A stretch of 64,000 nt of DNA from Ectocarpus siliculosus (Eukaryota; Sar; Phaeophyceae; Ectocarpales; Ectocarpaceae), in the NCBI GenBank assembly GCA_000310025.1, contig FN649728.1, positions 3,502,173 to 3,566,172 of the forward strand, written 5' to 3'. Within the stretch, counting starts at the first letter, position 1, and each line of letters starts with the position of its first letter. The position numbers and the translations under genes are program-made. The notes under the pieces are model-generated. The model was not told where the DNA came from. It searched no databases and saw only the letters and a list, made by a program, of their open reading frames with translations. Below are positions 4,715 through 58,400 of the stretch, piece after piece.

Positions 4715-7700
4715 GGTCAACTTCTTAGGGTAGCAACCTGGAATGTGCGGACTTTGGCTGTAAACGGGGCCAATGGATGCGGGCGAGCCTACAGCGTTCT
4801 ACACGAGGCAGCGAGACAAGACGTATCGGTGGTAGGAATGCAGGAGACACGGAGGGCAGGTCGAACGGAATTTGCAGCAGCGGGTTTCCGGGTGTTCTGG
4901 TGTGGCACGGAGACTGGTGGAGCGCATGGTGTGGGATAGCCGTCAAAGAGTCACTGTGCAAGACATCCACGTTCACTACGGAGTTTATTGACGAACGCTT
5001 GATGGCCATGAGGTTTACGTTGGCAGGCCACCGTGGAGCGGTCAACTTCGTAGCCGCGTATGCTCCAACCGAACCTTCAACCGCAGACAGCAAGCGCGTG
5101 CTCTGGGAAAAACTTGACAGTCTCGTGCCGAGGATCCCTTCCAAAGAATGTGTGTATGTCCTGATGGACGCCAATGCCCGGACGGCAGATAGGCTGGACG
5201 GAGGGGACGGAAGGGTAGTAGGAATGTACGGGCGTGATGAGCTCAACGCCAATGGCATGCTACTGTTGAACTTCGCAACGGAAAACAGGCTAGCTCTCAC
5301 GAACACGTTCTTTGAGACACGCAAGGGCGGGATATGGCACAGTGTCGGGAACCGATTGCAAGCGCCTTGACTACATCCTGACAAGGCAGGCATATCACGG
5401 CCGCGTATCTAACGTGGTTGTCATCCCCCAGCCGGTTCGCCCAGTCAAAGCAGACTCAGACCACAACATGGTAGTAGCCACCGTCAACCTCGCTTACAGG
5501 CATGCCCACAACCGTGCAGTCCGGACAAACCGAAACAGAAGCAATTCATCCGACGGGAAATGCAGTTCGAAGCAGCACGGTGTGCGGTGACTATTCGGTT
5601 CCTCCTCGACCTCGACAAACGACTGGACAAGCGAACAACCACCGCCGCGGAATTGGCGACCGACTTTACCAATGCTCTCCTCGAAGCAGCGCGGACGACC
5701 CTAGGGGATGAACCGCGGAGACGCCGCACGCAGGAGTGGTGTGAGACCCCAGACAAGAGAGCAGTGCCGGAGGAGGCCCTTACCAAACGGCGGGTAGCGC
5801 GCCGAGCGATGAGGGGCAATTGGAACTCAGCAACGTGGAGGGGTCTGAAAGCAGCGTGTAAGGGAGTGGCTACAGCAGTCGAAACGGGCATTTATGCCCA
5901 CCTGGACGGGTATGTGACTGAACTCGAAGCAATCTACAAAGAACGCGACATGCGAGGACTGTACCAACAACTCAAAAGATCAGTGGGCCTCAGCGGGAGA
6001 CAAGCGGGGGGACAGCAGTTCGTCGCGGATGAGAACGGCGTGTTTCTCCGGAACAGGGACGACATCCTCCAGCGGTGGGCGAGATTCTTCAGCACCCTGC
6101 TCAACACCAAATCCCCTACCCTGAACCCAGACATCATCGAACGAGTGACGCAGCGGCCAGCGACACATGACACTCAACGGTTGGGAGAGGTGCCAGAACT
6201 CGAGGAGGTGAAACGGGCAAAGAAAGGCCTCAAGAACTGGAAGGCACCCGGCTATGACTCCCTCCCTGCCGAGTTGCTCAAGGTCGATGACGACGAACCC
6301 TTCGTCCTGGGGCACCTCTATACCATCCTCGTAAAGGTGTGGAACGGAGGAGATATTCCGCAAGGGTGGAAGGATGCAACCATCAAGGTGCTGTACAAGA
6401 AGGGTGACCGGTCCACCTGTAACCACTACAGGGGGATTTCGCTACTATCTCACGTAGGCAAGGTCCCCTTCAAGATCATCACCAACCGTCAAAGCGCCTT
6501 CTGCGAAGCCAACAACATCCTCCCGGAGAAACAGTGCGGATTTCGACCCGGGCGAGCCACCGTCGACACGCTGTTTGTCGTGCGCCGCCTCCAGGAGCTG
6601 GGGCGGAGAAAGAAAATACCGCTCTATATGTGCTCCGTCGACTTGAAGAAGGCGTATGATTCGGTGGACCGAGAGATGCTATGGAAAGTGCTGGCCAGGG
6701 TCGGGATTCCCGCGAAGCTGATCAAAGTCATCCGCCAATTCCACGATGGAATGCGGGCCCGGGTGCGCATGGACGACGGAGCTATCGGACTGGTTCTTTG
6801 TGACGCAGGGCGTGCGACAAGGATGTGTGCTATCCCCACTGCTTTTTAACATCTTCTTCGCCGAGGTCCTCGCGGTCGTTGTCATCCGATTCAGCGAGGA
6901 TCATGTTGTTCTGCGGAGCCTGGTGTGCTTGGAGGAGGGGAAGACGGAAGCGGGGGGGGCGGAGGAGACACCCCTTGACCGAGTACGGAGGGCAGTATGG
7001 GGGAAGCTATATGCCGATGATGCCGGCGTCGTATCGAGGTCTGCAGAAGGACTGGCGAGAATGATGACCATCACCGTTGAGGTGTTCGGGGAGTTCGGGC
7101 TGACGGTATCGGAGAAGAAGACGGAGACACTCCTGATGCGCGCGAAGGACAAGCCGACTACACCACCACAGCCCCCCCCGCCTCCACCGCTGACCATCGA
7201 AGCCGCGGGACAGAAATACGCCCAGACGACCGAGTTCCGGTACCTCGGTGGCCTCGTCAACGAACATGACGACCTCACCCGGGAGATCAACTACAGGAGC
7301 AGAGGAGCGTGGGCGTGCCTCAGGCGATATGGCCGGGAGCTCTTCGACAGACCGAAAGCGCCATTCCGACTCAAGATCCACCTCTTCCAGGCGGAGGCGA
7401 TGGAGGCAATGCTGTACGGCTTCATGACATGGTCACCACTCAGCGGCCACTACCAGACGCTGCGGTCGATACACCACCGACTGCTCCTTCGAGTTATCGG
7501 GTACAAGCGCAAGAAAGACACCTACCGGCAGCTTTCCTACGCCCAGACGCTGAAGAGGGTCGGGTGCCAGAGCGTTGAAGCCACGATCCGACAACGACGC
7601 CTATTGTTCGCGGGAGCATTGGCAAGGCAGCCGGACGGGCGACTCCCGAAACGAGTGATGCTCGGTGAACTGGCGGGGGGGGAGAAGCGACGTAGGGGGG

Positions 7701-8059
7701 GACAGGAACAGAACTGGCCGAAGTGTGTGCTCGACGACCTGAAGGCATTCGGGGCCGACCACGGATCTACGAAAACCGATCCATGTTGTCTCGGAATCCC
7801 GGTACCGAAAGACACGGCACCGAAGTTAAAGTGGACGGAAGCCGCGAAGGTGGAGGGGGGAGTACCCTGGCATGCGGCGGTGCTGCAGGGAGGTGAGAGG
7901 TTCATGACCTCCTGGCACGAGAAGGAAGACGAGGCCAGCCGACAGCGAGCGCTCAAACGAGACCACAAGCCAACAAACAATGGGGCGGGAGGGGGGCAGG
8001 AGACGGACGAGACGGCGAGGGAAGAAAGTAAACGAGAAGAGACGGACCGAGTGGCATGA
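4715..8059 (+). pseudogene. LINE ORF2 region: endonuclease and reverse transcriptase with frameshifts
   Basis: The polyprotein would nick target DNA (APE endonuclease) and prime reverse transcription there. The sequence falls into successive open segments in different frames: about 4715-4939, 4777-5370, 5312-5590, 5560-6849 and 6746-8059. Each carries the next expected motif block, so the breaks are small indels and not rearrangements. The reverse transcriptase keeps its catalytic aspartates (YADD near 7010). The segment after the palm ends in a charged tail rich in Lys, Glu and Arg. Decay or sequencing error cannot be separated here. Confidence 0.9.
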
Positions 8060-37659: not shown

Positions 37660-39550
37660 CTAAGGACGTCTAGGAGTCGCTTTCTTGCCCCCTTTCAAGT
37701 CAGCGCTTCGCTCCGAGCCATCAGAGTCGTCATCAAGGTCGTCCTCGTCGTCGTCGTAAGACTCGAAGTCATCTTCGTCGTAGCTGCCAAGGTCCGCATC
37801 TTCATCGTAGCTACTCATGTCCTCCTCGTCTTCTAACCGTATTTCTTCGTCACTGTAGCTGCTGTCATACTGGCCTACCCCGGCAGCAGCATCATCGTAC
37901 GAGCCCTCACCCGACGCGTAAGACGCTTCATCGGCATCGAAGTCTGTTCTCGTGCCCTCGCTTTCGGTCGCGCTAGTTCCCGTGTCGCCTTCCGAGAAGC
38001 GTTCATCTGACAAATCCGACTCCTCTTCTGATTCAGGAGAATAGTCCTCCTCGCCATTGTCGTCGTTTCGACTTGCATCTGTCATTTGCTCCTCCCCTCC
38101 CTCCCCCTCTTCGTTCTCAGAAGAAGAATATGAGCTTCCATTGTCATTTTCTTGGTCGTCAGATAGACTCGGCTCTCCCCCCGATTGGCCGAAGTCATCC
38201 TCCTGAGAGGCCGCCTCCTGGTTATCGCCTGCACAACCCAACGGACGTTTTCGTTCAGCAAGTAGACAAAAGAGATACTTGAACGAAAAAAACAAAATGG
38301 GAAATGACGGATCGTGCAACGAGCTAACAAGAAGTTGATCCCAAACGTTTGTGATGCGTTCGCTCAGCCTTAGCATGTCTTAAATGTGGACGAAAAGACT
38401 GTTGTAACGTTGACAATCCAAAAACAAGCTGGGGAAACCAAAACGCAATACAAGCACGCCGAATAAATAAACCACCACGATCCCTCATCGTAGCACTCAT
38501 GCACCGTAAAAATGGAACGGACAATCTCCAAAACAAATCATGCGGACGGTCCACAAAAATATCTCACTTCCGTCCCCCTCATCCCCGTCTTCGTCGTCGC
38601 TGTCTTCAGCCGCCAGGGTAACGGTCGAATCTCCGCCGAAGTACTCTTGGTGTTTTCCTGCCGGCGACCACACATCCGAAAAGTAGGGAAAAAACAGAAG
38701 CACAAACGCTTGGCGTATAAATCGTGAAAAAGAAGGGCCTGCAGCGTCACGGCGTCGGTACAAGGCTTGGTGCCACATGGAGTTCGGGCTGATGGCCGCG
38801 CCATGGCGAAGGCGAGCGCATGATCCCTGGTGAAAACACCGGGAACGGAACAAATCCTTCCGACAATATGGCAACACCACCACACGCGTACGCCGAGCAG
38901 CACTACCCACGAGAACACCCACATCGTCCCGTACCTTTCTTGACCTCGATAATGCCGTCGTCTGCGCCGAACAGAGTGCCCGCCTTCTTGATACCCTTCC
39001 TGCTGGCGACGAGACCAGAAACGACACACCATACATCGGTGAATGCAGGTACGCAATCAACTGTCTCAACGCTCGACCATCAGAACCAATGCGACCGCAT
39101 TCAATGCAAGACACAACCCAAGAGATGGTATGAGGTGATCGATCGCATTCACGACAGTGAAAAATTTCATTTCCCCCAAACGACCGGTATCGACCAAACG
39201 CTTGCCATGGCATACCCATCCTTCGAAGGTGTCAAATCGGGGGAACGGCGTCGCTGGACCGTAGGGAAACGTTTATCGCCGATCAGCTCAACGCGAACGA
39301 CCAGCTAGTCACACCAAACCCGTAAGCTATCTTAACCTTCCTCGGACCTGAAACAGATCACGACGCAAAACAGCGAACACGACGCAGGCATGACTGTCCC
39401 CATCTACGCGATATGTCTCGCCACCTTTTGCCATCCCTCGCTTTCTCCATCATCTTGGCCCTCAACTCTTCTTTGCGCACAGCAGCCGCTTCAGCATCGC
39501 CCCCCTCTGCCTCCTGATCATCGCCAAGACGTTTGCGGCGGCGGATGCGA
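37660..39550 (-). CDS. Acidic-tailed protein of unknown function (3' exons)
   Basis: Proposed exons: 39425-39550, 38935-38999, 38568-38657, 37660-38228 (stop). Phases agree at all three junctions. The N-terminal part is basic and helical (RIRRRKRLGDDQ, VRKEELRAKMMEKARDGKRK), followed by GIKKAGTLFGADDGIIEVKK and GGDSTVTLAAEDSDDEDGDE. The last exon is about 190 residues of Asp, Glu and Ser with repeated SYDEDxD motifs, ending in a short basic tail. Such tails occur in nucleolar and histone-chaperone proteins, but I see no folded domain that would settle a family. The 5' end is not resolved. The exon at 39550 needs an upstream exon ending in two bases, while the UBX exon at 39821 ends in phase 0, so this is probably a separate gene beginning in 39551-39793. 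Confidence 0.55.
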
Positions 39551-39793: not shown

Positions 39794-42700
39794 TCATGTG
39801 GAGTCAGCGCTGGTCAATACCTGTTCGGCGGCGAGCGCAGCGGCCGTGGTAGCGACCAACCTCGCGGATGGCGCAAGGCCGAGGGACAGCAGGGTGGACG
39901 AGTGACAGCTTTCGTCGGACGCGGCCAGTTCGCGTTTGGGGAAGGCCGTCTTGAGCACGAGGTCGGCTCCAAACCCCTTCAGGTTCGCACAACAACGCAA
40001 GGCACATCAACACAACCAGTCGCCGGATACAGAACAGTTCATGCCGAAGACAGGTGAAATGCTAGGTTCGCGAGTACCTCAGACGCCAATCTTGGAAACG
40101 ACAAATTACAACGTTGTGAAGCCACGCCTTTTACGCGTCCACCCTAAGTGTCCACCTTAAGTCATAGCTGGGCCCAGACCGCAAACCAAAACTCATTAGA
40201 GAAGCTCCAGAAGCAAAAAGACGTGAATGGGGGCTACGAACCCTGATCCGCTTGGCAGTCTTTCGTCGAGCAAAAGCGAGGGACAAAGTTGGGGATGAAA
40301 CAGTGTGGGCACGTGTCGCTCTTACTGCGCTTGGTAGGCGCAGGTACGCGCAGGTACAACTGGCGTCGAGCGCATTCTAGATGGATTTCATTCCGGAAGT
40401 TGCGATACTCTCGCAAGTGTTCATACCGGCACATCCGGAGAAAACGGTACGACCTATGGATACGTGCATAGTCATCACGTACGTGAACCGCCACACCGAC
40501 ACCGTGTCTTGAGAACGTCGTGTCAAGGCAAAGTGAAACGACTCCTGAACAACAAAAACGGGGAGGTGGACAACCTCCTACAGAACGAAAGCACAAACTT
40601 GCACCATGCAAACAGGAGGCCATAGAGCCAGCGCGAAAACGCCTCTACCAAAGCCACCCATACCTGCCTCCAGTCATAAGCCTCCTTGCTAAGACATGCT
40701 CCACTGTGCCAATCGTTGCCCTCGGTTTGCGATTCTGTGGTTGCCCGATTGGACGACTCAACAAATACATGAATGGGCAAGGCGAAGGCCGGTCCTTACT
40801 CGACACTACAACTACAACGTCGTAGCATTGCGACCCGATTCACTCCATGCCCTGGGGAATGCAAGCCCTACACACGCACCTCCTCTTCCTGCAGAGTTCG
40901 GAACAGTTCCCCCAGTGTCGAATCCGCCTCCATAGTCAGTTTCACCACTGCCTCGTGGCCGCCTGTTCATCCAATGATTATCACATCAGGATAAAGATCG
41001 TGCTTTGTTGTACCAATTCATTGCTTACCGATGATATTTTTTGTGGTTTCCATGCTAGCCACCCCTTCGCGACTGTTTCAAGGCCACAATGCCAGTTGAA
41101 GCTGGCGTTAAATCTGGCACGTACAAGGTAGGCAGCCCATTAAGGACACGTCGCCTGGATTGATGCCAATGTCAACGAAATGGGCAATATTTGCGGCTGG
41201 AGAGGGAAAACTACACGGTGCGACTCGATTTTTTTCCTTTTTTTTTGTACATGGTGTGCTGGGGAACCTGGGGGTTGAAAGGCCTAAAATCAGAAACCGT
41301 TGCCGCTAGCGAGCGTGCATTTCCGCTGTCGGGACACGCCGCCCATGCCAACAAGGCAATTTCGCCTGTTCGCTCGACCTTACAGACCCGCCAAGAGAGC
41401 GCGACTACTGTAGCCCATACATCGGAATATAGAATGAATCCAGTGAAGTCAGTGTTCAGTTCAAGGGCAGAGAAAGCGAGCGATAAGGATGGTCTCAAAA
41501 ACCTGGGTTGATCGATGTGATGATTGGCGTCAAGCGCCGACGTTCCAAGAAATGACGTCATTTCAACACAAGTCTTCCGAGTATGTGCTACTACAGAAAC
41601 TCTCTTCACAAAGGGAACATAATTATTTCAGGCTTCTTCTCCTGGTCGGATTCCCAGCAAACCCCCCAGTGTTAGGCCTGAACGGCGAACAAGAGCGTGT
41701 TAGAAGGCATCCGCACGAAATAGATACACAAAGCATACCCGAAGAGTCCGTGATCTCCAGCTTGGCCACGGTAGCCAAGCGCTCCCTGGCCTGCTTGATC
41801 CTCTCGAGCTCTTCCTCGTCTTCCTCGTCTTCTGAATCGTCGTACTCGTCCTCTGTTCAGGTTTCCGGTGTCAAGACAGATGGCAGCACTCGGGACGCTT
41901 GAAACCGTTTTTTGTGCATAGAGCATCTTGTGCTATAGTCCACGGAAGCCCGTGTATCCTTCTCAATGTACCGCCATCGTGGCTGCGATGTCTTGCTCGA
42001 CTGTAGGAGGCACTTGCCGCCAACATAGGTCACGCAAAGCCAACCCTGTGATCGCATTCCCCTCGTCATCGTCGGGGCACGTCTATACAACTTCTCACCG
42101 CTGTCTTCTTCGATCTGCGGCATCTTGATGCCCTTGTTCCAAACCTCCACCCTATCCTGCACAGACGCCAGCACGGCCATGTTCCTGCTCGAAGCGGTTG
42201 GGGGGAGCGTGCTGGTCATGGCTAAACAACACCATAATCGAAACCAAGGCCAAAAGCGAGCCTGTATTGCGCTCATTACTCCTTCACTCAAATCCTTCCA
42301 GCAGATACATACCATTTAACGCCCAAGATGTCTCCGTCCCCACAGAAACCACGGCCAGTGCATTTGCATGAACGACACAGAAATTGTGGAGACATAATCA
42401 AAAAGGAAACCTACGGGAGACAACACACACAGCAGAAAATCCAACAATCACTATCGCGGATAACCCTAATATCCGGTGCAGCATTCGCCCCCAACCACAC
42501 GACACAACTACACCCCACTTTTACACAGTACAGTACCTGTGCAAGAGAGTGAGATGGCTCTCATCCCCGTCTTTGTGCCTGAACCCAGCTAGGCGCAGGG
42601 CCTCCAGCATTGGAGGGTGCGGCGCCAGGACTTCCTCGTACGCCTTGCTTGTCGTCGACAGAGTCCGGTACTTGGGGTCCTGCGCCCGAAATTGTTGCGT

Positions 42701-45700
42701 TTCGGCGTTTTGGTCAGAGCGATTTCTTGAAGAAATCATGCCCCCTTTTCGCACATTTGACGCATGGCCCGTCCAAAAACAAAGCGAACTACAACGGAAA
42801 ACCTTCCACCCCCTACGGCGCCCTCTTTTCGCTTTCCGTCACCTCCGGGAACTTGTAGGCCGACATGAGCACGGTGATGACGGTGCGGGCGGCCTTCTTG
42901 GCGGCGGCCACGGCGGGGGCGTTCTCGGCTGCGGGGCCCCCTCCTTCGGGGAGCTCGCCCTCCAGCGTCTCGCCCAGGGCCTTGTCGACCTTGAGGCAGA
43001 GGCTCTCCTTCTTGCGGGAACCCAGCACGGCCAGCCCTACAAAATAGGGCAGTACGAGGATAAAGCGACTGCATTGTACAGCTTGCCGCCAATAGGTTCT
43101 CTCTCCTCACGCCGCGGCGTACTGCCCCACCCCTTCATGGCCAGAGGGAAGCCCAACCGCCTGATTCTACAACCCCGGCAGGGAGAGGTACTGATATCGA
43201 TAAAGCGAAGGTTGTGTGTGTGTGTGTGTGTCGGACACGGTTCGAAACTACGGAACCCTCGGCATCATCAGCACTAAAAAAGGACGAAGCCAGGGTGCTG
43301 TCGGCGTTCGCCGGGTGAGGTTCTTGTTGCATAGAAGCAACACCACCACCATCAAACATACCCCACATAGCAAGCCATCCTGTTCTGGATGAACCGCAAG
43401 CAATCCCGTCGGCCTGAGAACACACCGTCTGACACCCGTGGCGTAAAATCACGCACAACGCGGTACACGTATCGCGTGGAAATAGGGGGCTGAAAAAGAC
43501 ATGCAACCTTTTTCTAGAAGTACAGGGGCTGGCTGCGAGGAATTCGCTGGCAGGGAGGCACAACTAACCTGCCACGTGAGCCAACTTCCGGCTGATGCCC
43601 CTCAGCTCCGCCTGGCTTTTCTGGTGTTCCCGCAGCGCCTGGTCCTTGGGCGGCGGCATGCCCATCACCACGCCCATCATGAAGGATTGCATCTGAACCA
43701 GAAGATTTCATTCAATCAAGGGTTGGATACAAAAGGGCGGTTGTTGAGCCAGCAGTTATCCGTTAGCAAAATCTGAAGCCGCCGCCAAGAACAACACAAG
43801 CTGTTCAGGGCTAGGAGGAGCGACAGGGTAACGGACCCGCCTCCACCATCGCCATATGTGCAGCATGTGCAAGGTGACTTTGATCCCACTAAATAACTGC
43901 TGCTAGTCTCTCAAGGGTCGGGAAAAAAATATTCATATACGCACAAAGCGGTCAACGCTACAATACATCGTCGCATCCATGCGGAAGGTTGGAAGCATAC
44001 TTATGTACGTGTTACGCGTTCTCGAGGCAGGACTTGACGTGTACAGGGCACAACGCAGGTGTCATATCACGCCAAGCGAAGCAGACCACCAATTCACTTC
44101 CAAAGCTCATTCTCTCTCCAATCAACGTCCACATTCCTCCAAAGTCTTTCAATGTTGGAGCCACGTCTCGCGAAGAGTAGCATGTCTCACGAACCCACCT
44201 CCCTTCGACAACCACCACCCCCCTTCGACAACCAACTCCCGAGGCACGCCAGGCAGCATTCATGACGTCATCATCATCATCGTCGTCACCCCCCGCTAGA
44301 TGCATCGTCACGAACGACTCTTCCTACCTAGCAAAATATCTAAAACAGCTGCATATCTGGAGACCACTACCTACCCTCTCCAAGGGGGCTTGGTGGCACG
44401 GCCTCCCCCTCTCCTTACACCCCTGGGGAGGCCGCGCCTGGGGGATCACGTATGGTGAACCGACCACACACCTACATACCTCGTCCTGCGCAAGCCCCCC
44501 GACGAAGTTGTCCAAGATAATGCCGTCTTTCATGCCGAACACGGAGGGGAAGGCGTGGATGCCCAGCACTTCCGCGATGCTCCTTTGCTTCTCGGCGTCC
44601 ACCTTAGCCACCCGGAACATGCCTCCAGATCTCATGGCCGCCTTTTCGCAAGTGACAATTGTTTTATTTAGACACTCCTTATAATTGGACGTTTGAATTG
44701 TTTCCGGCCAAGCTCTTGTTTCTCGTCACATCCGTGTTCAATACATAGTGCATACCATAGTTTATCTTGGTGTGGCGTTTGAATGCAATAAGGAAAGAAT
44801 CAACACCAACGCTGTCGTGCAACGACACATTCACACCGACACAGCGAGTGGTGGGAACAAGAACACCGCACGAACGGCATAATCTCCAATTTAACACCAA
44901 GAGTGGCCATGGAAAGTGCCTGAGTAGTGTCAAACGTAGGTGAAACACTTGGAGAAATCGGAGTCGGTGAAAAACAACGTTGATGAAAGCTACAAGACGT
45001 TGATGAAAGCTATAATTGCTTTGAGGTCGAGAAACAAGCGTTGGGTCGAAGGAAGAAAACACACCGATTGACAACCATTTGTTTTCATAGAGCCACTACA
45101 CTCAAAATCGACAGCCGTGAAATATGAGCTGGGCGCGCTACCTGGCCAAGTACGAAAGGTTGTCCACTACACATTTGTGCCACGAACCTCTTCGAGAGCC
45201 GGCGTGAGCTGCTTGCAAGGGCCGCACCACTCGGCGTAGACGTCCAGGATGACGGGCACGGGAGACTCGAGAACCACCTGGAAGAAGAAGCACCAACGGC
45301 CGTCGCTCGGGAGACTAAATAGAAGGATACAAGGTATCGTCTGTGAATATATTACGTCACTGGAGAAAAAAACAAGCCATCGTACGAGGACCAGGCGGTA
45401 CTGAGATGGAGTAATTCCAAGGGAAACGGTGGGGTAGGGGGGGTCGCACCTTCTGCAGCGTCTTGTCCGTGACCTCGAACACCACGTCCTCGCGCTTTGC
45501 TGGCGTGGGCGCGGGGGGTTCGCTCTTCTTGGTGGTGCTAGCCTTGCCCTCCTTTACACCCTTCTGGTGCACTCCCTAAGTGAAGACAACGTCGGGAGAG
45601 AGCACAACCTTAGCACACACCGAAGCCAATAGGCTACCATGGCATGAGTTGAGGTCCTCTCGCGCCAAGTTCGTCGAGCGAATGCGGTCAAAATCAACAG

Positions 45701-48700
45701 CTCGGCAAGTTTTTCACAGAGAGCGGTCCAGATTTCCCACCCTGCTTTCGCAAGAGGACACGATGTGGTTGGCTCTTGGGCAATCGCCGCATTCAGCATT
45801 CAGGCATGCAACCTGGTCGCCAGCTCCACAACACGGCGGGCCACAACACCAACAACTTCCACCTCACCACTACCAACAAAACATCAACGAAATATGCGTC
45901 CGCCACAGGGCATGGTTCGTCTGTGTCGCTGGTGGTTGCATCAGTCGAGCTATCTATCGCGTCGCCATCAATCGTCGGCCATCGTGGCAACGGAGTTGTA
46001 TCCGACGCCAACAAGGCGTTTGTCTATGGAGCTGTTGGTTTTTGCACCAGTCAAGCCATCCATCCGGTCGCAATCAACATCCGCCTATCGTGGTTGCTTG
46101 CACCTGGACGGTCTTCTCGAACTGCTTCTGGTCCTTGCGGCTGCCGCCTTTGCCCTCGATGTCCTTCTGCCACTGCATCAAGAGCGCCTTGCGCGCTACC
46201 TCTTCGTCCCAGCCGTGCTCAACCATCTCCTCGATGCTCTGCTCGAACTGCATCGACAGCACCCTGTTCGCGACCGACCGAGACATCGGTACCATGCAAT
46301 CGAATGCCGCTGTTGTCGGTAGACCATTGACCTCGCATCTCTACAACGCCGGCAGGAAGCGACTTGCCGGGTGTTCCCCGACCCAGCCTACGTTTCACAG
46401 GGATGAACCAGGAGCTGGCTATCATCCTTGCACGACGGGTGTTGGTGGGAGAAACCAAGCATGCGGCCACAGCAGTTCGACGCATCATCCCTAGGCGGAC
46501 GAGGTAGTTGACCGAACAAGCCAAAACGAAGCAGCCAGCAGGGGCAACGTCAATCAAAACACGTTAAATGCCGAGTACAAGCCCTCGGCGAAACACGCAA
46601 CTCCCGGCCGGGAGACTCGCCTGTCCTCCTCCTCGAGGGCGTGCAGGGCCGCCGTGCTGTTGCCCCCGGCCTCTCTCATGGCGGACATGGCCACGTCGGA
46701 GTCCCACCCTCGCTGCTGCAGGTCGGCCAGCCCTTCCTCGTACCTGCAGCATCCATCACAGCGTTGGACAGCGCACATCGAAAATCAAGAAGAAAAAAAA
46801 AAAAACAGTGAATACATTCATACGCTGCCATCACACGCTCGTGTCAAAAGTGAATAACGTAATGAATAAAAGTTAATATCTCATACGCTGCCATCCCACA
46901 CTCGTGTGAAAAGTGAATAACGTAATGAACAAAAGTTAATATCTACACTGGCTGCATTCATATTGGCGCACGGCGACCATCACACGCGTGTGAGAATGGA
47001 AATATGTGAAGATGCTGCAGCTGGTAACCTACGTTACACCTCCGAACGTTCAGTACGGTACGCACGGCGATTGTTCGCTGTGTTGCTTCGTACGGCGGCC
47101 CGCAGCAGTCTCATATTTTTCTCGTAGGTGCAGGGTAGAGATACTTCTGTGGGCCGACGACCCAAATTATTCTCCCTGGAAATACGCACCTCTCCAGGTC
47201 CTCTTCCTCCTGGGCGGCGAGAGCCTCAGCGGCTGCCACGACGTCTCCCCCGGACGCCTCAAGCGCGGCAGTCGACTCCTCCGCCTCCCAGCCCATTGAA
47301 ACCTGTGGCAAAAAGCAAGTGAAATAAGACGAAGTTGTCATGATGATGACATTTATCCGCAGACAACACATGCAAGAAGATGGCAAGCAAGCATCGGGTT
47401 GGTACGCAGGGGGCAAAAAAGAGTGTGCGCAAGAGACACACAAATACACGTCGACAAGGTGTTGGATGCGATTTTTGTTCAAGTACCGTTGATGAAAATC
47501 TCATTTGGTCGAAGACAAGAAACACTCGAGGGAGTCCTTGACACAGGTTAAGGTTGAGCCAACAGATGGAAAACGCAAAAACAAAGCCTTAGGGAACACA
47601 TGGCAGAGCACACCCACTCGCACACCCACAAGCGACCAAGGCACACACCTACATGCCGACCACCAAATCCAGGCGAAACGTTCCAGTCAAGGAACGGTGC
47701 GCACGATACACTACCGCGAAACGCTATTCTACACACAAGAGGTCACCCGGCCCCCAACAACTTCTCCATTGCGCGTTACTAGATATGATGGTGACCTCGG
47801 CATGCACCATCAGCTTAGGGTACAAACGCCACCAGTGCCTGTCCGTTCTCACCAACTGGGCCACCCCAGGGTCGACAGCACTGGGAGGCACTCCGCCGCC
47901 ACCATCGCTATCGCCACCCGCGTCCGGCACGAGAGCATTATCAGCACCAGAGGAGGCTGCAGCACCGGCAGAAGCCGCGCCAGTAGCAGCGCCAGCCTCT
48001 GCGGCGGCGCCGTCGACAGCTGGAACGGTCTGGGCCGGGTTGGGGCCCACCGGCCTCCTCTCGCACACGTCCCCGTCGCACACCACCTCGTACTCCTGCT
48101 GATGCGTTGTATTACATCGCGGTGGGTGTTCACTTCTACATACATGCTTCGTACTTCACGGGGCATATCCATTGTCGTTGTTGTCAACCTCAAACTGGTT
48201 CGGCTTCTCTCGACTTCTTTTCTACTCGAGAAATTAATCTCCATCGTCGACTGCTTCACACCCCGACTCGTAAAAAAAAAAAAAAAAGGCCTCCGTGACT
48301 GCTCTCAACTCTTCTTGGTATTTTCTTCTCTTGTTGCTGCCGCTGCTGGAGCTCTTGTTGTTGTTGGTGGTGGTGGCCAGGCTGATACCCTGGCGTTGAT
48401 CATCGTGCACACCCAGTACATCAACACCTCCGCGTTTCGCAACCCCTTCTGCTCAGACCGACCGAAAAGGGAGCCAGTACCTACCTTTTGCATGGGATAC
48501 AGATAGGGCCGAGGCTAGGGCTCCTGATTCCTCTTGTGGGCTACAAGCTGGCTTGGGCGCCGAGGCCAGGGCTCCTGATTCCTCTTGTGGGCTACAAGCT
48601 GGCTTGGGCGCCGAGGCCAGGGTACTTGATTCCAACTGTGGGCTACCAATGGCCACTACCGGTACGTGGGTTTTCGTGCAAGGGGCTCCTAACCCGCAGA

Positions 48701-51700
48701 TGACATGAGACAAGACACCACACCCCCCCGGAACTACTTTCAAAGCATCGTTGCTCGACATCGAAGAGGGTGCTGAAATCAGAGGATACATAACGTTCTC
48801 GGAAAGCTCTCCACGAGACGGTTCCAACGCCTCCCGATACTTTCGGCACAGCCAGTGTTTCTTCCTGTCAAGTAATCGAGCTCTGAAATTCGGGCCAGGG
48901 GGTGTGATATCTTATGCAACCCACGGCAGGCTTAAAGACTTTTTTTCATGCTGGGCATGAAGTTCTTCACTGCCAAGTGGTCGAGCACCGGCGGCGCTAT
49001 CTGTGCACAACGTCAAGCGCACGAGAACCAAGCGCAATTGTTGAGAGATCACACACCTGTGGGAGAGCGCCGCCCTGCTCCTGGCCGGCCTGGGCATCGT
49101 CCCCGCCATCGACAGCTGCCTTGGCACCGCTCAAACCTCCGTTCTCCCCCTGTGAGTATTGTCATGCGAAAGTTGGCGTGTTGGTTACTGTGGTGGATCC
49201 ACTAATGACATCCGTTCTGGCACGAACCCTCATACTATACCCAATCCATTAGCCTCGAATGCTCCTGTGTTATTACGCCCCACATTCCAACCAACCCAGT
49301 GGGGAGACACACGCCATCGGCAGGCATGAAACAAAACGAACCGCATGCAACCGGATCTCGCGTGCCTAGAAAGTTTCCTTCAAACAGCGAGCTTTCTTCA
49401 AACAGCGACATTTACACGGTCCTACCTCACTGGTCGCCGAACTCTACTATCATTTAGAGGGGATGGGTGGCGAACTGGACTTTCGTCGCACGAACAGACC
49501 ACCGCGAGACATACACAAGACTTGCGAACACTCCCCGTCCTCGGAGGGAACCTCCAAGACCCAAAAGCACCAAGCAGCCGTTCCAACACCTTCCTTGTCA
49601 GTGCAGCCAGAAAACACTCGCCACGACACAGCGCACCCAAATGTCCCAAAGGGAACGACAAAACATCAACAATTCCAAAGTGGCGGGAAATTTTGACAAG
49701 AACAGTAGGACCAGAAGGTCGTCGAAGGTGTCAAGACCACAACGTTTCGCGACAAGCACGGAGCTCCTCCATAAACAAAAAAAAAGAATGAGAAAAAACA
49801 ATCCCAATCCTTCGGGCAAACGACCAACACTTTACTTCTCTCTTCCTGGAAACCGTCTACAAAATGACGGATCCCGGAGCTGACCGTTTCCGTTCACTCA
49901 AACCAAGCTTTGGCACACTAACCGCTAGAAACCGGGAGTGGAACTCCTTGCGAATACGAGCGAAGAAACAAAGAAGAACAAAGCGTCAGCAGCGGCGACC
50001 ATGCCAGTGTCTTGCCACACGACGCAAACATCTCTCGACCCTTCCACCTAAATAAACACAGGTGTACGCTGCATCGTCCCAACAGGCGTACGTACCTCCT
50101 GCTGCTCCTCGTCCTCTCCGACTCCCGCCTCCGAGAATTCGATGCCCAAGCCATCCTGCGAATCGCCGAACTCCGACAAATCCCACGAGTCCAGCCCATC
50201 CTCGTCTCCCGCCTCCTTCCCCTTCTTCTCCTCCTCCTCCTCGTCGTCGTCGTCATCATCACCATCGCCACCGCCGCCGCCTATCCCCAACCCCGCGCCC
50301 CCACCCCCCGCACCTTTGTTTCCCTTGGCTGGGGCACCGTCGGCACCCTTGCCCCCGCTCGAGCCCCCGGAGGATGATTGGGCGGAGCCCCCTGCGGCAG
50401 CGGCGGCGTCGCCCGACTCTACACGATTGCCGTTCAATTCATACAGATACAAAAAAGCGTCGAAAATCCATGAAAAAAAAAAACACAGCAAAAGGTGGGA
50501 GATGCGTTTGTTTCGCTTGCGTGAGTCACACGACAAGGTCGGTCGACAACGACCAATCGGCACCATGCCCCCCGAAGCGTTCAAGACGCACGAAATTTAT
50601 CGATCGCCAGGTTGCATGAACGGCGAAGTGGCGCACGGATAAATACGGGACGATGCACCGACGGAAACACGGTGAATTGAGTTACGGTATGCCCCGGTGT
50701 AACCAATGCCGGAAACTAGCGAGGTAGCGGGATTGAGCCATCCACTCCCTGATCGGCACCACAACCAGCAGGCGTTTTCGGTCTCAACTGCACAAAAATA
50801 GACACAATCGAGGTCAACCAATCCACCAAGAAAACCTGGGTCAGGTGACACACAAACGTAAATGCCAATGCAACAGCAGTGACAATACAGCATCGGCCCG
50901 ATCACAAGAGACCAAACCACACACTTGGCTCAGACTGGCGTTCGTATACTGGGTGAAGGCTGAGCACCAGGCTGTCAGATGGCATAATTCATGTGGAACT
51001 CGCTCTGACGCTCGATTCAGCCACGCTTTCGTTCCTTCGACCATCCCATCATCTGCCCGATATCGCTTTTTATCATCATACCGTGTCGACAAACTGCCTG
51101 AAATTGAGCCTTGAACGTGGTCGGTTCTACACATCAACGTACAACTCGCTCCCGGGAAGCACGTTATTCATGCACGGCTTCAATCCCACATATCTCGAAG
51201 CGAAAAACGGCCGGGCCTTCGTCTAGTGGGTCGTGTGCGGTGTACCCCCCCCCCCCGGGAGCAAGGCTCGACGGCATCACCAGTCACGAGCATCTCTCTC
51301 ACCATCCGTGCCGCTTTCCCCCTCTCGGCCCGCCCCCTTGCTCAAGTTAGTCAGCACCGTCCGCGCGTAGCTCCAGCCGCCCAGCTGCGTCTCCATCCCT
51401 GGAGAGTTGCGCCGCATGTAACGGTTGCGCGACGACGACGACGACGACGAGGGAAGGAGAGGCACGATAAGAGTCGGCGGGGGCATGGGCGCAGGAAAAT
51501 CATGGAATGAGATTCCTTTTCAGTGGCACCATTGACGGGCGGGACAAAGAGACCGGCGCGAACTCATCTGTCGGGTGTTGGGGCGGATACGGCACAAGCG
51601 AATCACTCTTTGGCTGCGGCGGAGGGCAACGAGCGCGAAGGCCCGTGCCGTGCTGGCATGTCCCAGTGGTCTGGTATGGGTAAGGTCCTCAAAATATTTC

Positions 51701-53631
51701 TCGAGGCTTGGTAAAGCCGGAGCTCGGGCAGGCCAGGGGCGGGGCAAAAAATGGTCATTGGGCTCCCCTCTTGGAACCTCTTCAGAAAGTACTTGCAGCA
51801 GGTCGTGACGGCAACAACAGCCCGAGTTCCACACAGCAAAAACAGCTGACACCTTTATTGGCAACAAGCCACAACTCTCAGCAGCAAGTTGAGGGCATGT
51901 GCGAGAGGAGGGCCGGGGACCGGGCATTGAAGAGAGAGAGAGAGAGAGGTCTAGAGAGAGAAAGACAGACAGACAGACAGACAGACAGACAGTTCGAGCC
52001 TCACCTGGTCGTGGCTGTACCGTTGCTCCATTACCGCCACCACGGTTTGATCGCTTGGAACGCTGCGTCGCCACGAGTCCTCGAACAGTCCGGGCTGCAG
52101 AGCTGAGGAAGATTGTGGAATGATTATCCAGAAACGGTCACGCAGCCGTGCGAGCTCAATCGAAAGGCGGTCTTCTCTTTGCGTTCTCTGTTTGGGTACC
52201 GACCGCTTGACAATTCAACAAGATATGCTGCACACCGTACAGGGAGATGCAGAGCTCGAGGTTACAGAGAACGGGCTAGCCACGTCCTTTTTCCTGCGGG
52301 TTGTAATCTAACCGGCGACGACGCTTTCTTTCATGGATACCCCGCATACAAGTACAAGATACGACAGCAGTGGCTCGTTCCCGGAATGGTGTGTGAGGAG
52401 TGGTGTGTTCGTCCCATCTATTCTGGCGCCGGTTTACAGGCCTTTCTGCGTAAATACCGGACGTATTAGCCAGGGTCACACAAGAGGAAGGTCATAAAGG
52501 AGCTTTTTTCATTTTCTTTTGTGTTTTGTTGCCCCGCCTTTCCCCTTCGGTGCACTGGAATGGTTTGCAAATAGACATTGCATGTGTACACTAGGGAAAG
52601 CTGCCCAAGATACCACACACCCTGGGCCAATTTTCGGATCTCATTTACTCCACAGCAGCGCCGAAAGGACGACGTCGGAACCCCTCGCCGTGAGCTTTCC
52701 GAAAACGCACCCTTTGGATTATGCATCCTCGTCGCAGTCGAGCTCGGAAAATCGGTCCAGGGTGTGTGATATCTTTATATTGAATCACCTCGATGTACGG
52801 TATGCACCGTACATGAGCGATCATTCAAGAAAAGGTTGCACAGGCCAAATAGCACTGCCGTGTACGTTGCCTTCACACCCAAGATGAGCAGCTGAAGGCC
52901 CTCTCACCTCTCGAAGGGGTAGGGGGACTCTCGGGATAGGGTCAGGTGGTCGACGGTAGTGGAGGTGAGAGGTGCTCCTCCAGAGGCCAAACCGTCCCCG
53001 CCGTTGTACGAGTGCCTTCGGCACCGAAAGCGGCAGCAAGCAGCAGCAGCAGCAGCAGCAGCAGTAGCATTAGCAGCGTCAAGTCGTACATACAAAACCG
53101 AGCAGCATTCACAGGCACTGTGGCACCGTGGTGAACACCAAGGCTGCGGTGCTTACTGCAACCGTCGAGGACTGCACTACGGTAGTGCTGCACGTCTACT
53201 GCTGTAGAAGAGGCTGGACGCATGTCTCGCATCGCATGAGGTGTATTGTAAAACGTCCAGGTTGTGCACCTCCCGTCTTTAATGCATTTCGTCTCCAAGC
53301 ACATTCACAATCCATCCACATGATGTAAGGGCGGTACACAGGCGGGGGGGGGGGCGTTGTGTGGTCGAGGATGCGTACTGGTGTTGCTGCTGCTGGTGAG
53401 TGTAGACCAGCAGCAGGATAGCGGCGGCAGCAGCGGTCACAGGTCGTGGTTGTATGTCAACTTGCATATGCATCGCAACCACCGCCTTTCGAAACGAGGG
53501 AGCCATCAGCAGAAGCCAGAAGCAAACCTATACCTCGTTCCAGGCGATGACGACGACCCGTGGTGGCGACGCCTGGTGCTGACGAAGCCGGAGGCCTGAT
53601 CGACGGCGGCCAGCAGCGCCGCCGCCGCCAT
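39794..53631 (-). CDS. Multidomain putative Cdc48/p97 adaptor: three UBA-like domains, thioredoxin (CGPC), PUB and UBX
   Basis: Twenty exons: 53534-53631 (ATG), 52908-53015, 52005-52102, 51303-51515, 50096-50418, 49057-49149, 47796-48095, 47190-47302, 46621-46743, 46104-46263, 45450-45575, 45188-45277, 44480-44641, 43569-43692, 42843-43036, 42537-42679, 42099-42184, 41739-41852, 40880-40962, 39794-39976 (stop). All phases match; one donor is GC (46620). Predicted 977 residues. Residues 1-411 are low-complexity and acidic, with exons 1-4 least certain. UBA-like segments lie at about 412-448, 449-489 and 490-530 (DLQQRGWDSDVAMSAMREAG; MVEHGWDEEVARKALL). Thioredoxin spans about 575-669, with WCGPCK (Cys603, Cys606) and a HAFPSVF cis-Pro strand. 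PUB spans about 745-822 (DPKYRTLSTTSKAYEEVL, LRLAGF). UBX spans about 890-965, with the FPK loop (TAFPKREL) that contacts p97 and LGLAPSARLV. UBA binds ubiquitin and PUB/UBX bind Cdc48, so a ubiquitin-dependent Cdc48 role with thiol chemistry is inferred. Confidence 0.8.
42537..43036 (-). other. PUB (PUG) domain exons
   Basis: Exons 42843-43036 and 42537-42679 join in phase 0. The first ends with AARTVITVLMSAYKFPE and the second begins DPKYRTLSTTSKAYEEVL and continues to LEALRLAGFRHKD. This matches the PUB core, a helix followed by an (N)P-x-KYR-x-L block and a final L-x-x-x-GF. PUB domains bind the C-terminal tail of Cdc48/p97. Confidence 0.75.
45188..45277 (-). other. Exon carrying the thioredoxin active site
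   Basis: The exon is 30 codons, phase 0-0, with a CCAG acceptor and GTTCGT donor. It encodes VILDVYAEWCGPCKQLTPAL, the central strand and active-site helix start of a classical thioredoxin. Both cysteines and the intervening Gly-Pro are present, so the site should be redox-active. This differs from the inactive UAS thioredoxin-like domain of FAF1, FAF2 and UBXD7. Confidence 0.9.
46818..46943. repeat. Tandem duplication, 63-bp unit, two copies
   Basis: The unit beginning TCATACGCTGCCATC and ending AAAAGTTAATATC occurs at 46818-46880 and again at 46881-46943 with a few differences. It lies in the intron between the first two UBA exons of the UBA-thioredoxin-PUB-UBX gene, and further diverged pieces follow to about 47000. 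Confidence 0.85.
48508..48655. repeat. Tandem repeat, 51-bp unit, nearly three copies
   Basis: Copies begin at 48508, 48559 and 48610 (GCCGAGGC, GCTCCTGATTCC, TTGTGGGCTACAAGCTGG). The third is diverged and incomplete. The period is a multiple of three, and on the minus strand the array is open as a 17-residue repeat. It lies in the intron between exons 49057-49149 and 47796-48095. Confidence 0.9.
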
Positions 53632-54968: not shown

Positions 54969-55421
54969 TCACGCTCGCAACAAGCGCTCCACGAGCTCCG
55001 CCTTCTTGCCCGAAACTTTCAGGCCACGACTTCGAAGCTCTTCTTTCAGGGAGACCACTTTCATGGACGACCAGCGCTGACGGTGCTGCTCGTTCTCAGA
55101 GGCAGTTTCATCGACGTCGGATACGCGTTCTTCTGCGCCGTCTTCCTTCAGAGAGTCCTCTATAGCATCAGCCGCGGTTGATCTGGATGTCTCCGGGGGG
55201 AGTACTGCTCTTGCCCCTCGCTCTCCCGTATGTCTGATTCCTGGTGGCTGCGAAGCTGCCCCCCCCGTGGTTGTTGATATTGAGTCAGGGTCCCTGGGCG
55301 TTGCTTTTGGTGCTGCCGGTACTGGCGCTGGGGGTATCGCTGCTGCGGCTGCTGCTGAACCCACATCTTCACCTCTACGCGCCCCGACAGGTGGTCGTCG
55401 CGCCCCGGCAAGCGGTCGTGG

Positions 55422-55468
<47 letters not shown>

Positions 55469-58400
55469 GTTGCTGCTGACTCTCGCTCCCATCATGACCG
55501 CTTACAAATGGCTGCTGCCGAACAGAGTCCTCGATTATCCCGTCGTCACTAAGAACGTCGGCAAATCGGGCCTCATCTAACCGATCCTTCACCCTCGCGG
55601 CATCTGCAGCTAGCACTCTGGCGTACGGCGAGTCTCTTGAGACACCACCGGTGGTCTGAGCATCGGCGAACAGTGCCTCGGCTACCAACGCGTCGGCTGC
55701 GGTGGCGTCGGCCCTGGCTCGTGCGGCCGCCCGCTTTGCTGCCACCGCTGCCTCTTCGACCGTTCCCTGTCAATAGAATAGTATGAACGCGCAAAATACA
55801 GGAAGGGGCCGCGTTGTATTGGTAACTCCAACAACAGGGGGTCGTGTGATCAGAAATGCAAGTTTGGCGTAGAACGTCCTGGCTTGCCGCCATCGCTGAC
55901 TCCTCATCGATTCCCCGAAAGCAAAAAGGGGCCAACCAACACATGCGAGGGAGATCAGCGCACATGTTACAATGTGTTGGGCGTTGCCGCGATGTTGAGC
56001 CCGGTATTCAGGTGAGACTTTACTGCTGTGAAAAGGAAGGATACAGAAAATGTTTTGGCTGCATGCAAAAGACCGCTTTGGCTGCATTGGATTCAACGTC
56101 TTGTCGCTATCACGTAGAGCAGCACATCTTATGAAAATACAACGGTCCACAGCTGCAGGTGTCCCCAGGACTCGGTCCACTACTTGGAAACTGCTTGTTA
56201 TGGATCGTTAAGAACGGCTGTCCAACTCCTACCTTACTCGCGTGTGTTCCCGGCTGGTGCGTCAAACATACACCGACAGGTGTAGACTGGCGCCCACAAA
56301 TATGATGGCACAAAAAACACACAAACTCATGTAGTATGTACGTCGTGGAGTTGAATTGCATGTTTGCATGTTTGGGCAACCAGACCCTTGGAACTGGAGG
56401 GGGTTCACGTCCGTCAACGGGGGACAGTCACTTTATCGCCAGATATTATGTGGCGGCGCTTACCGCGTACGAGATAAGTAGCGTGCTACGGTCCGATCCA
56501 CACCTCTGGAAAGCGGTGACTGTCTGATTGTTTTCGCCAGCAAAGCATGTAGGGTTGAGGGTATGTATTCATGGAGGAATACTGTTGGGCGCCCAACATC
56601 TGAGGTAATCTCAGTCAAACGGAGGGAAGACAGGGATACCGAGTACGGCCCACATGTACCTGGGTGGAGTGGGAGGAGCGAGAATGCTGCTTCCTGACTC
56701 GCATGGACTGCAGTAGCCCCCCGACCTGATCACAACCGTCGTCAAGAGCGGAACAAGAGCACACACCAGTGTCAGATGTGTAGACCAGCAGTTATTCGAC
56801 CAAGCCAATCATGGAGATGAGCAGAATCAAAACCAACCGAGACCCCCTTTCTTTCAGCGGAAAAGCAAACACGTGCGTGCCAGCAACGTGATCTTGTCTG
56901 TTGTGAATTTTTCTGGTGCTCTTGCGTTTGTTTTCAAAATCAAACTCATGACACAGTGCTCTGAGAATGAGCGACATACGCCAGATTTTCACAATTTGGC
57001 AACAATAATGGCGTAGTGGACGAAAACGAACTTGCCAACTCTTGTGCCTCTAGCAGTCCGTGAAGACCCACCACCACCACCACCACCACCACCACCACGG
57101 CGACACCATCACGAACGCAACCGGAGCACCCCGCACCTTTCTAAGCGTGTCATCTTCCGCACCACCAGTACGAGCACCACCGCCAGAGCTAACCATAGCA
57201 ACATCCCTCGCACTGCCGTCGTTGGTTTCTCCCGGAGGACTGTCCGCATGTATATTCGGGTGGGTCTTTCGCGGGGTGGGCATGAGCTTGTCGAGCCCCA
57301 TTCTCAATCCCCGCTGGACGTCGATGCACAGCCACTCATCGTCGGCCCCGGCGGGCACGTGCCAACACCCCTGGGTGACAACGAAAGGCGGCGATGATAT
57401 TGGGCGTGGGTCCACCATTCGTAATCCTTATGCCGGCGTGCTCGGTGTTACGTGAATATGGTTTACTCGATCATCACGTACATCTGCGTATGACATAGCA
57501 CAAGTGGATTACGACGCAAATATTTGACGGCTGCATCTGCAGCATGGGTTGCCTGTAATTCGCATTTTCTTGACGGCCTTACCCACGCTCGTCGCGCGGC
57601 AATGAGCCAGTGACGCGGAGACCCGCTACAAGCAACAACAAGTAGTCAACGACCATATAACCAAGAACAGGACGGCAAACCTGCTCTCGCCGCACCTGGC
57701 GTTAGAACTCAATCCTGTAGATGTCGATGTCTTTCGGGAAAGCGTGCCATGTGATGGGATTTCGACCGTGCTTGTGACAAGGCGTCACCGACAACTTGTG
57801 GGAAGCGTTTGCAACCGTGCACCGACCTTCCTGGCAAACCGTTTCTCTCCCCGTCACTGGTGCAACCGGTTTCCGCTTCTTTTCCCAATCGGGTGCGCCT
57901 TGGTTAAATATCTCAAGACAAGGCCACGATATGACTGCGTGCGTGCGTCTCGCGTATTAGGAAAGGGAAGCCAGTATCTGCGACTGCGGGCCCGAGCCGG
58001 AGAAATACAACTTCGATGCGCGCGTATCAGCATCATACATGTACCATCAACCACGGCACAAAACAGTGAAACCATCGACGGAGACAGCAGCAACCAATAC
58101 CATCGCCACAAGGTAGATATCAAGGTGGAGGTTTCGGATGTTTCACCTGTTCGCTCTTCTGCACGTCTCGCGTGAAGGCGGGGGGCGGCTGGATGGCAAC
58201 CTGTGGGGGGTTCGCTGGCCAGCCTTGCGGATTTAAGCCCTGGTGGGTCCAACCGCAACGCCGAACATCAAAGGGGTAGCATGGTGGAGTGTGTCAAAAC
58301 CTATCAATACACTGGCTCCGATAGCAAAACGTCTGGAAAGCCCACATGGTCTATATAGGACGATAGCGAAAATCTCCATCAATGTTAGGGGTCTGCACTT

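Follow-up and report, generated by a model that had tools for sequence, protein, structure and literature searches.

The stretch of DNA analysed here (the window) comprises 64 000 nucleotides of the brown alga Ectocarpus siliculosus (GenBank assembly GCA_000310025.1, contig FN649728.1, positions 3 502 173 to 3 566 172). On its minus strand, between positions 53631 and 39794, lies a predicted gene whose 20 exons were joined into a single frame of 928 residues with a terminal stop. Its product is predicted to carry UBA-type modules, a thioredoxin domain with a CGPC active site, a PUB domain and a UBX-like C-terminus, which makes it a candidate disulfide reductase of the Cdc48 pathway. The exons and features are the following.

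39794–53631, minus strand: gene model of 20 exons and 928 residues, from splice sites, phases and codon scores
53631–53534, 53015–52908, 52102–52005 and 51398–51303, minus strand: exons 1–4
50418–50096, 49149–49057, 48095–47853 and 47302–47190, minus strand: exons 5–8
46743–46621, 46263–46104, 45575–45450 and 45277–45188, minus strand: exons 9–12
44641–44480, 43692–43569, 43036–42843 and 42679–42537, minus strand: exons 13–16
42211–42099, 41852–41739, 40962–40880 and 39976–39794, minus strand: exons 17–20
52005–53631, minus strand: exons 1–3, insecure N-terminus (residues 1–101), weak or wrong-frame codon scores and a signal-peptide-like start
47853–51398, minus strand: exons 4–7, acidic, Ala/Gly-rich region containing the alternative start Met 103 (exon 4)
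47225–47864, minus strand: UBA domain 1, residues 350–379, split by an intron; Pfam UBA E 3.5e-7 as a fragment, 30.4 bits
46621–46743, minus strand: UBA-like unit 2 (exon 9), marginal; UBA_HYPK E 0.062 only
46104–46263, minus strand: UBA-like unit 3 (exon 10), matching the initial part of the UBA domain; UBA E 0.0022, profile positions 3–23 of 37
43678–45482, minus strand: thioredoxin domain, residues 517–616, exons 11–14; Pfam E 1.7e-19, 70.1 bits
45215–45226, minus strand: CGPC active site, residues 545–548, the sole CXXC of the protein
42539–42899, minus strand: PUB domain, residues 699–764, exons 15–16; Pfam PUB, below the cut-off
39845–41778, minus strand: UBX-like domain, residues 828–912, exons 18–20; UBX E 0.17, OTU1_UBXL E 0.0076, UBX domain of UBXD4 E 0.36
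39935–39943, minus strand: FPK at the site of the UBX FPR loop, from alignment to UBXD4 and UBXD2

The 19 introns of the model have a mean length of 582 bases. Eighteen are of the GT-AG type and one, at the exon 9 donor, is GC-AG. Splice phases are in agreement across exons 4–20. Codon log-odds were calculated with exons 8–20 as the training set, to which the scored exons 8–19 therefore belong; exon 20, which contains the stop, has no codon score. In the model frame the log-odds were positive in all 16 exons from exon 4 to exon 19 (range 9.4 to 41.6), and 13 of these 16 contain a stop in at least one alternative frame. From exon 4 onward, the predicted gene model is supported by the sequence. 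The region of exons 4–7 matched no Pfam family. For exon 17, an acceptor giving an exon start at 42221 was rejected, as it led to a frameshift and stops; with the following AG, which puts the exon start at 42211, the frame is restored. Two sites within introns hold direct repeats, one with three 51-base copies (48508–48660) and one with two 63-base copies (46818–46943). Introns 6 and 2 also have a 22-base end sequence in common, found at 48890–48911 (minus), 52752–52773 (minus) and 52609–52630 (plus) with a pattern that was itself built from two of these places; the copies at 52609 and 52773 are in facing orientation and resemble a short inverted-repeat element.

The thioredoxin domain is the best-defined part of the protein. 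Its Pfam score lies far above the cut-off of 23.5 bits, and it retains the CXXC. When compared with solved structures, it matched TXNDC5, ERdj5 and mitochondrial and bacterial thioredoxins (among 60 of the 249 matches, with E up to 0.001). The preliminary description, made from the letters of the DNA, had reported a WCGPCK thioredoxin with its cis-Pro strand. Both WCGPCK and a downstream FPS are present, the latter at what we take to be the cis-Pro position of thioredoxins. The identity of this predicted domain is certain. The three UBA-like domains of the same description fared unequally. UBA was matched by the whole protein at E 2e-8, and with a cut-off of 22.4 bits unit 1 passes (30.4 bits), but unit 3 is weak and falls below it (18.2 bits). 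Unit 2 is marginal; searched as a fragment against Pfam, it gave no UBA match.

The Pfam PUB profile matched the whole protein at E 5.1e-7 (30.0 bits) and a fragment at E 6.3e-8 (32.9 bits). At the C-terminus, UBX had been named in advance. An 85-residue fragment, one of three lengths tried, gave UBX at E 0.17 and 12.5 bits (cut-off 21) and OTU1_UBXL at 17.2 bits (cut-off 22.7). Divided by the 24 736 families searched, the UBX value corresponds to an expectation of about 7e-6 for UBX alone, and because of this single-family expectation for a family named beforehand the term UBX-like, and no more, was accepted. Two solved structures were matched by this part and both are UBX domains (UBXD4 at E 0.36 and UBXD2 at E 0.91).

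Several observations weigh against a single gene for a Cdc48-linked reductase. Some concern the exon joins. The frame runs into a stop nine codons beyond exon 10 and one codon beyond exon 14, which itself starts with an ATG, as would be expected if two or more adjacent genes (for a UBA protein, a thioredoxin and a PUB-UBX protein) had been wrongly joined. We regard such a misjoining as highly improbable. The open stretch preceding each of exons 11, 12, 13 and 15 holds no in-frame ATG, an in-frame stop directly precedes exon 11 and there is no Met among residues 461 to 560, so the thioredoxin could not start on its own in the model frame. Its Pfam match extends to residue 616 and takes in five residues of exon 14; it thus appears to need the join to that exon, and the phases across these joins agree. 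We judge a single gene to be much more likely than several. The insecurity of exons 1–3, considered below, is another of the points against the proposal.

The other observations concern the PUB and UBX domains. The PUB match, significant by its E value, is under the Pfam cut-off of 34.3 bits. Eight solved structures were matched by the PUB part; the best PUB domain among them, that of PNGase, had E 1 and ranked after an unrelated receptor (0.78). The joined PUB-UBX part gave three matches, an unrelated acidic protein (0.4), UBXD2 (0.76) and a designed protein (4.2). UBX was not listed by Pfam either for the whole protein or for a 129-residue fragment, the latter giving OTU1_UBXL at 0.018, and a UBX profile search of the genome, with at least two matches, does not list the gene's own locus. 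No VIM (RX5AAX2R) or SHP pattern was found in the protein. In PNGase, residues N41, K50, Y51 and R55 hold the tail of p97 (Cdc48) (PMC8181520). These four positions read S, K, Y and S here, so that two of four are kept in an alignment to the mouse PNGase PUB that itself has E 1. The S3/S4 loop of the UBX domain, canonically FPR, is FPK in the alignments to UBXD4 and UBXD2.

The PUB domain was nevertheless accepted as predicted, on the profile hidden Markov model (HMM) evidence. The PUB core of the preliminary description thereby stands on its E value, but below the bit cut-off; the UBX domain with an FPK loop was right as to the FPK, but the domain itself appears in one fragment and under threshold. 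In view of the PUB contacts, the loop, the UBX score and the missing VIM and SHP patterns, the claim that the protein combines both Cdc48-binding modules was overstated. The same features would fit a thioredoxin that binds ubiquitin but has PUB and UBX-like domains that no longer bind Cdc48 and instead serve other partners. We consider such a loss unlikely: the KY pair of the PUB contacts is retained, and UBXD1 has an SGG loop in its UBX domain and retains p97 binding, so a departing loop is not decisive.

The 189-Mb genome assembly (492 contigs) was searched exon by exon for other loci of this kind, all resulting lists being lower bounds. With residues 354–928 as the query, at least 21 matches were obtained: 13 are the gene's own exons and eight lie in or at the thioredoxin part, the best of them on contig C15 (45% identity, E 1.6e-4). 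Profile searches gave at least 19 matches for PUB (at least 10 over the cut-off), at least 50 for Thioredoxin, at least 13 for UBA and the UBX matches mentioned above. The PUB matches are spread over many contigs, including small ones, which may reflect either an expansion of the family or the presence of foreign contigs. Inspected by eye, two of the 19 listed PUB matches have a thioredoxin match within 10 kb on the same strand, namely this gene and C26:5542255. On the minus strand at C26:5542189–5551295 there are, in order, a thioredoxin exon (ATWCGPCRR, Thioredoxin E 5.6e-12), a PNGase-core exon (three PNGase structures matched, best E 5.2e-16), a jacalin-like stretch (E 9.3e-7) and a PUB domain (E 1.1e-15). 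In Pfam the PNGase-core exon matched the Rad4 transglutaminase-like family only, at 24.2 bits with a cut-off of 27. Two further pieces of this locus were compared with Pfam: a Cys-rich one gave only a zinc-ribbon at E 0.14 and worse, and the other gave nothing. These exons are likely to form one thioredoxin-PNGase-PUB gene. On the minus strand at C6:403501–408000, a UBA match and a PUB match lie 0.7 kb apart, possibly in a UBA-PUB gene.

In the genome the CDC48_2 profile gave at least two weak matches to exons, not enough for the Cdc48 tails to be read, and the DER1 profile gave at least seven matches on four contigs. In viral contigs the thioredoxin-PUB part matched 43 loci, and all 43 matches fall inside residues 12–131 of the 279-residue query, i.e. 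in the thioredoxin part. Relatives of the PUB-UBX part were encoded by none of 600 viral and none of 583 prokaryotic pattern matches, collections that say nothing on eukaryotes.

Known systems share parts of this architecture. UBXD1 (UBXN6), a VIM-PUB-UBX adaptor of p97, resembles it in that a PUB domain precedes a UBX domain with a loop other than the canonical FPR, but the VIM pattern is absent here, and the UBA modules and the active-site thioredoxin are extra. FAF1, FAF2 and UBXD7 have a comparable order, with a ubiquitin-binding N-terminal part, a central thioredoxin fold and a UBX-like C-terminus. In contrast, their UAS domains are without CXXC, whereas the present protein has CGPC and an intervening PUB domain and no UAS family is listed for it in Pfam. 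An active-site thioredoxin in a protein of the Cdc48 and endoplasmic reticulum-associated degradation (ERAD) path is found in PNG-1 of Caenorhabditis elegans and, together with PUB, at the C26 locus. In PNG-1, a thioredoxin-PNGase, the thioredoxin replaces PUB, reduces disulfides in vitro and is needed for rescue. The PNGase core is absent from the present protein; no transglutaminase-type core is among the eight Pfam families listed for its whole length. By the features tested, the predicted protein is not a FAF1-type adaptor, because it has no UAS, nor UBXD1, because it has no VIM pattern and has extra domains, nor a PNGase, because it has no core; it would recombine parts of all three.

Other published proteins come near to it. 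Leishmania LiPUB3 and PUX2 carry UBX and PUB, and the Ectocarpus gene Esi0071_0018 is listed as 'PUB domain, zinc finger protein thioredoxin' with the label Cu_Hypo_up (Hypo being read as hyposaline). The latter thus names PUB and thioredoxin together in a brown-algal gene, but it is assigned a C2H2 zinc finger, which Pfam does not find in the present protein, the comparison being by description only. In the algal selenoproteome, a selenocysteine-containing 'PUB domain-containing protein' family is among the least widely distributed. In the openly licensed literature searched there was no paper that names a thioredoxin, a PUB and a UBX domain together and no description of the full domain combination, by which its absence from print is not established. 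The preliminary description had called the combination uncharacterised; this agrees with the literature searched, but its parts have precedents in the C26 locus, PNG-1 and Esi0071_0018.

That description had also brought ubiquitin-binding, dithiol and Cdc48-type modules together in one predicted protein, and here the gene model and the HMM matches back it. We tentatively favour, with a confidence somewhat short of even, the view that the locus is a single nuclear gene for a protein disulfide reductase that binds ubiquitin and is linked to Cdc48. In the predicted layout, an acidic, disordered N-terminal region precedes between one and three modules of UBA type, which are followed by an active thioredoxin, then by a PUB domain and last by a UBX domain that has degenerated. 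The UBA modules would hold ubiquitylated clients, docking on the Cdc48 hexamer would fall to PUB and perhaps also to the UBX-like domain, and client disulfides would be reduced by the CGPC thioredoxin, after which the chain could be threaded and unfolded. From the families to which the domains belong we infer that the protein binds ubiquitin and Cdc48, acts as a reductase and couples reduction to unfolding. A reductase on the Cdc48/ERAD path is favoured because PNG-1 and the C26 locus of the same genome are precedents, and the joining of PUB and UBX in one adaptor has precedents in UBXD1 and LiPUB3.

The same domain anatomy would also suit a redox adaptor or sensor, in which the dithiol switches the adaptor or Cdc48 by reversible oxidation and reduces no client. 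Esi0071_0018 is listed as increased under copper and one other stress, which would agree with this if that gene is a relative. However, CGPC is of the reductive type and stands in classical surroundings, and the PNG-1 thioredoxin of the worm is a disulfide reductase in vitro; we judge a sensor quite unlikely.

The N-terminus bears on where the predicted reductase might act. The preliminary description had the phases of all 20 exons fitting, which is arithmetically true, but residues 1–101 are insecure because the codon scores of exons 1–3 are weak or favour another frame. In the model frame the log-odds are +3.9 for exon 1 and +1.2 for exon 2, and for exon 3 they are -18.1, versus +4.0 in another frame; the latter is out of phase with exons 2 and 4. 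The translation of exon 1 has a signal-peptide-like hydrophobic stretch and, after it, ASGF. For comparison, a small-x-small-F motif was counted at those open ATG starts that have a hydrophobic stretch. It was present at 6 of 55 such starts on the minus strand (three of the six being nested ATGs of exon 1) and at 1 of 32 on the plus strand (7/87 in total), and in reversed nonsense sequences at 3 of 43 and 1 of 17 (4/60 in total). Because the motif is not more frequent than by chance in these controls, the presequence-like start is suggestive only.

If the start were genuine, a bipartite presequence in exon 1 could bring the protein into the periplastid space as the redox part of import by the symbiont-specific ERAD-like machinery (SELMA). 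The F that stands next to the putative cleavage site would point to the stroma and not to the periplastid space. This residue, the insecurity of exons 1–3 and the occurrence of similar starts in nonsense sequence leave a periplastidal protein very little chance, although sUBX and sPUB are in the table of SELMA factors of Phaeodactylum tricornutum. The Toxoplasma apicoplast thioredoxins, found at the organelle periphery, are essential, and one of them, ATrx1, has both cytosolic and plastid-targeted heterokont relatives. These too are thioredoxins of lineages with red-derived plastids. In the text passages searched, by whose description alone ATrx1 is compared, it differs in that no PUB or UBX is mentioned.

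A bolder version of the reductase proposal would make the protein a member of an unnamed adaptor class of red-plastid algae, with the UBX-like domain at the Cdc48 N-domain, PUB at the tail and a UBA-held client reduced while it is threaded, possibly as a periplastidal redox arm of SELMA. We regard this extended version as very unlikely.

As to the surroundings of the gene, the same-strand upstream neighbour (54969–55769, minus) has a SAP domain at its end (E 4.6e-13). Downstream, at 37660–38379 (minus), there is a very acidic open frame with strong codon bias, which matched no Pfam family at E 0.01. Reverse-transcriptase stretches were found at 1022–1768 (plus) and 6851–8026 (plus), with matches to RVT_2 (E 2e-23) and to RVT_1 (E 2.2e-5), RVT_1 being under its cut-off.

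Cdc48 unfolds its substrates by threading, which a disulfide loop obstructs. Reduction before retrotranslocation has been credited to endoplasmic reticulum reductases such as ERdj5. If the proposal of a client-reducing protein is true, a reductase tethered to Cdc48 and to ubiquitin would move disulfide reduction to the unfoldase itself, and a redox domain would be added to the UBX and PUB protein type represented by PUX2 and LiPUB3. In such a system, disulfide bonds may be cut as tagged proteins are pulled apart.

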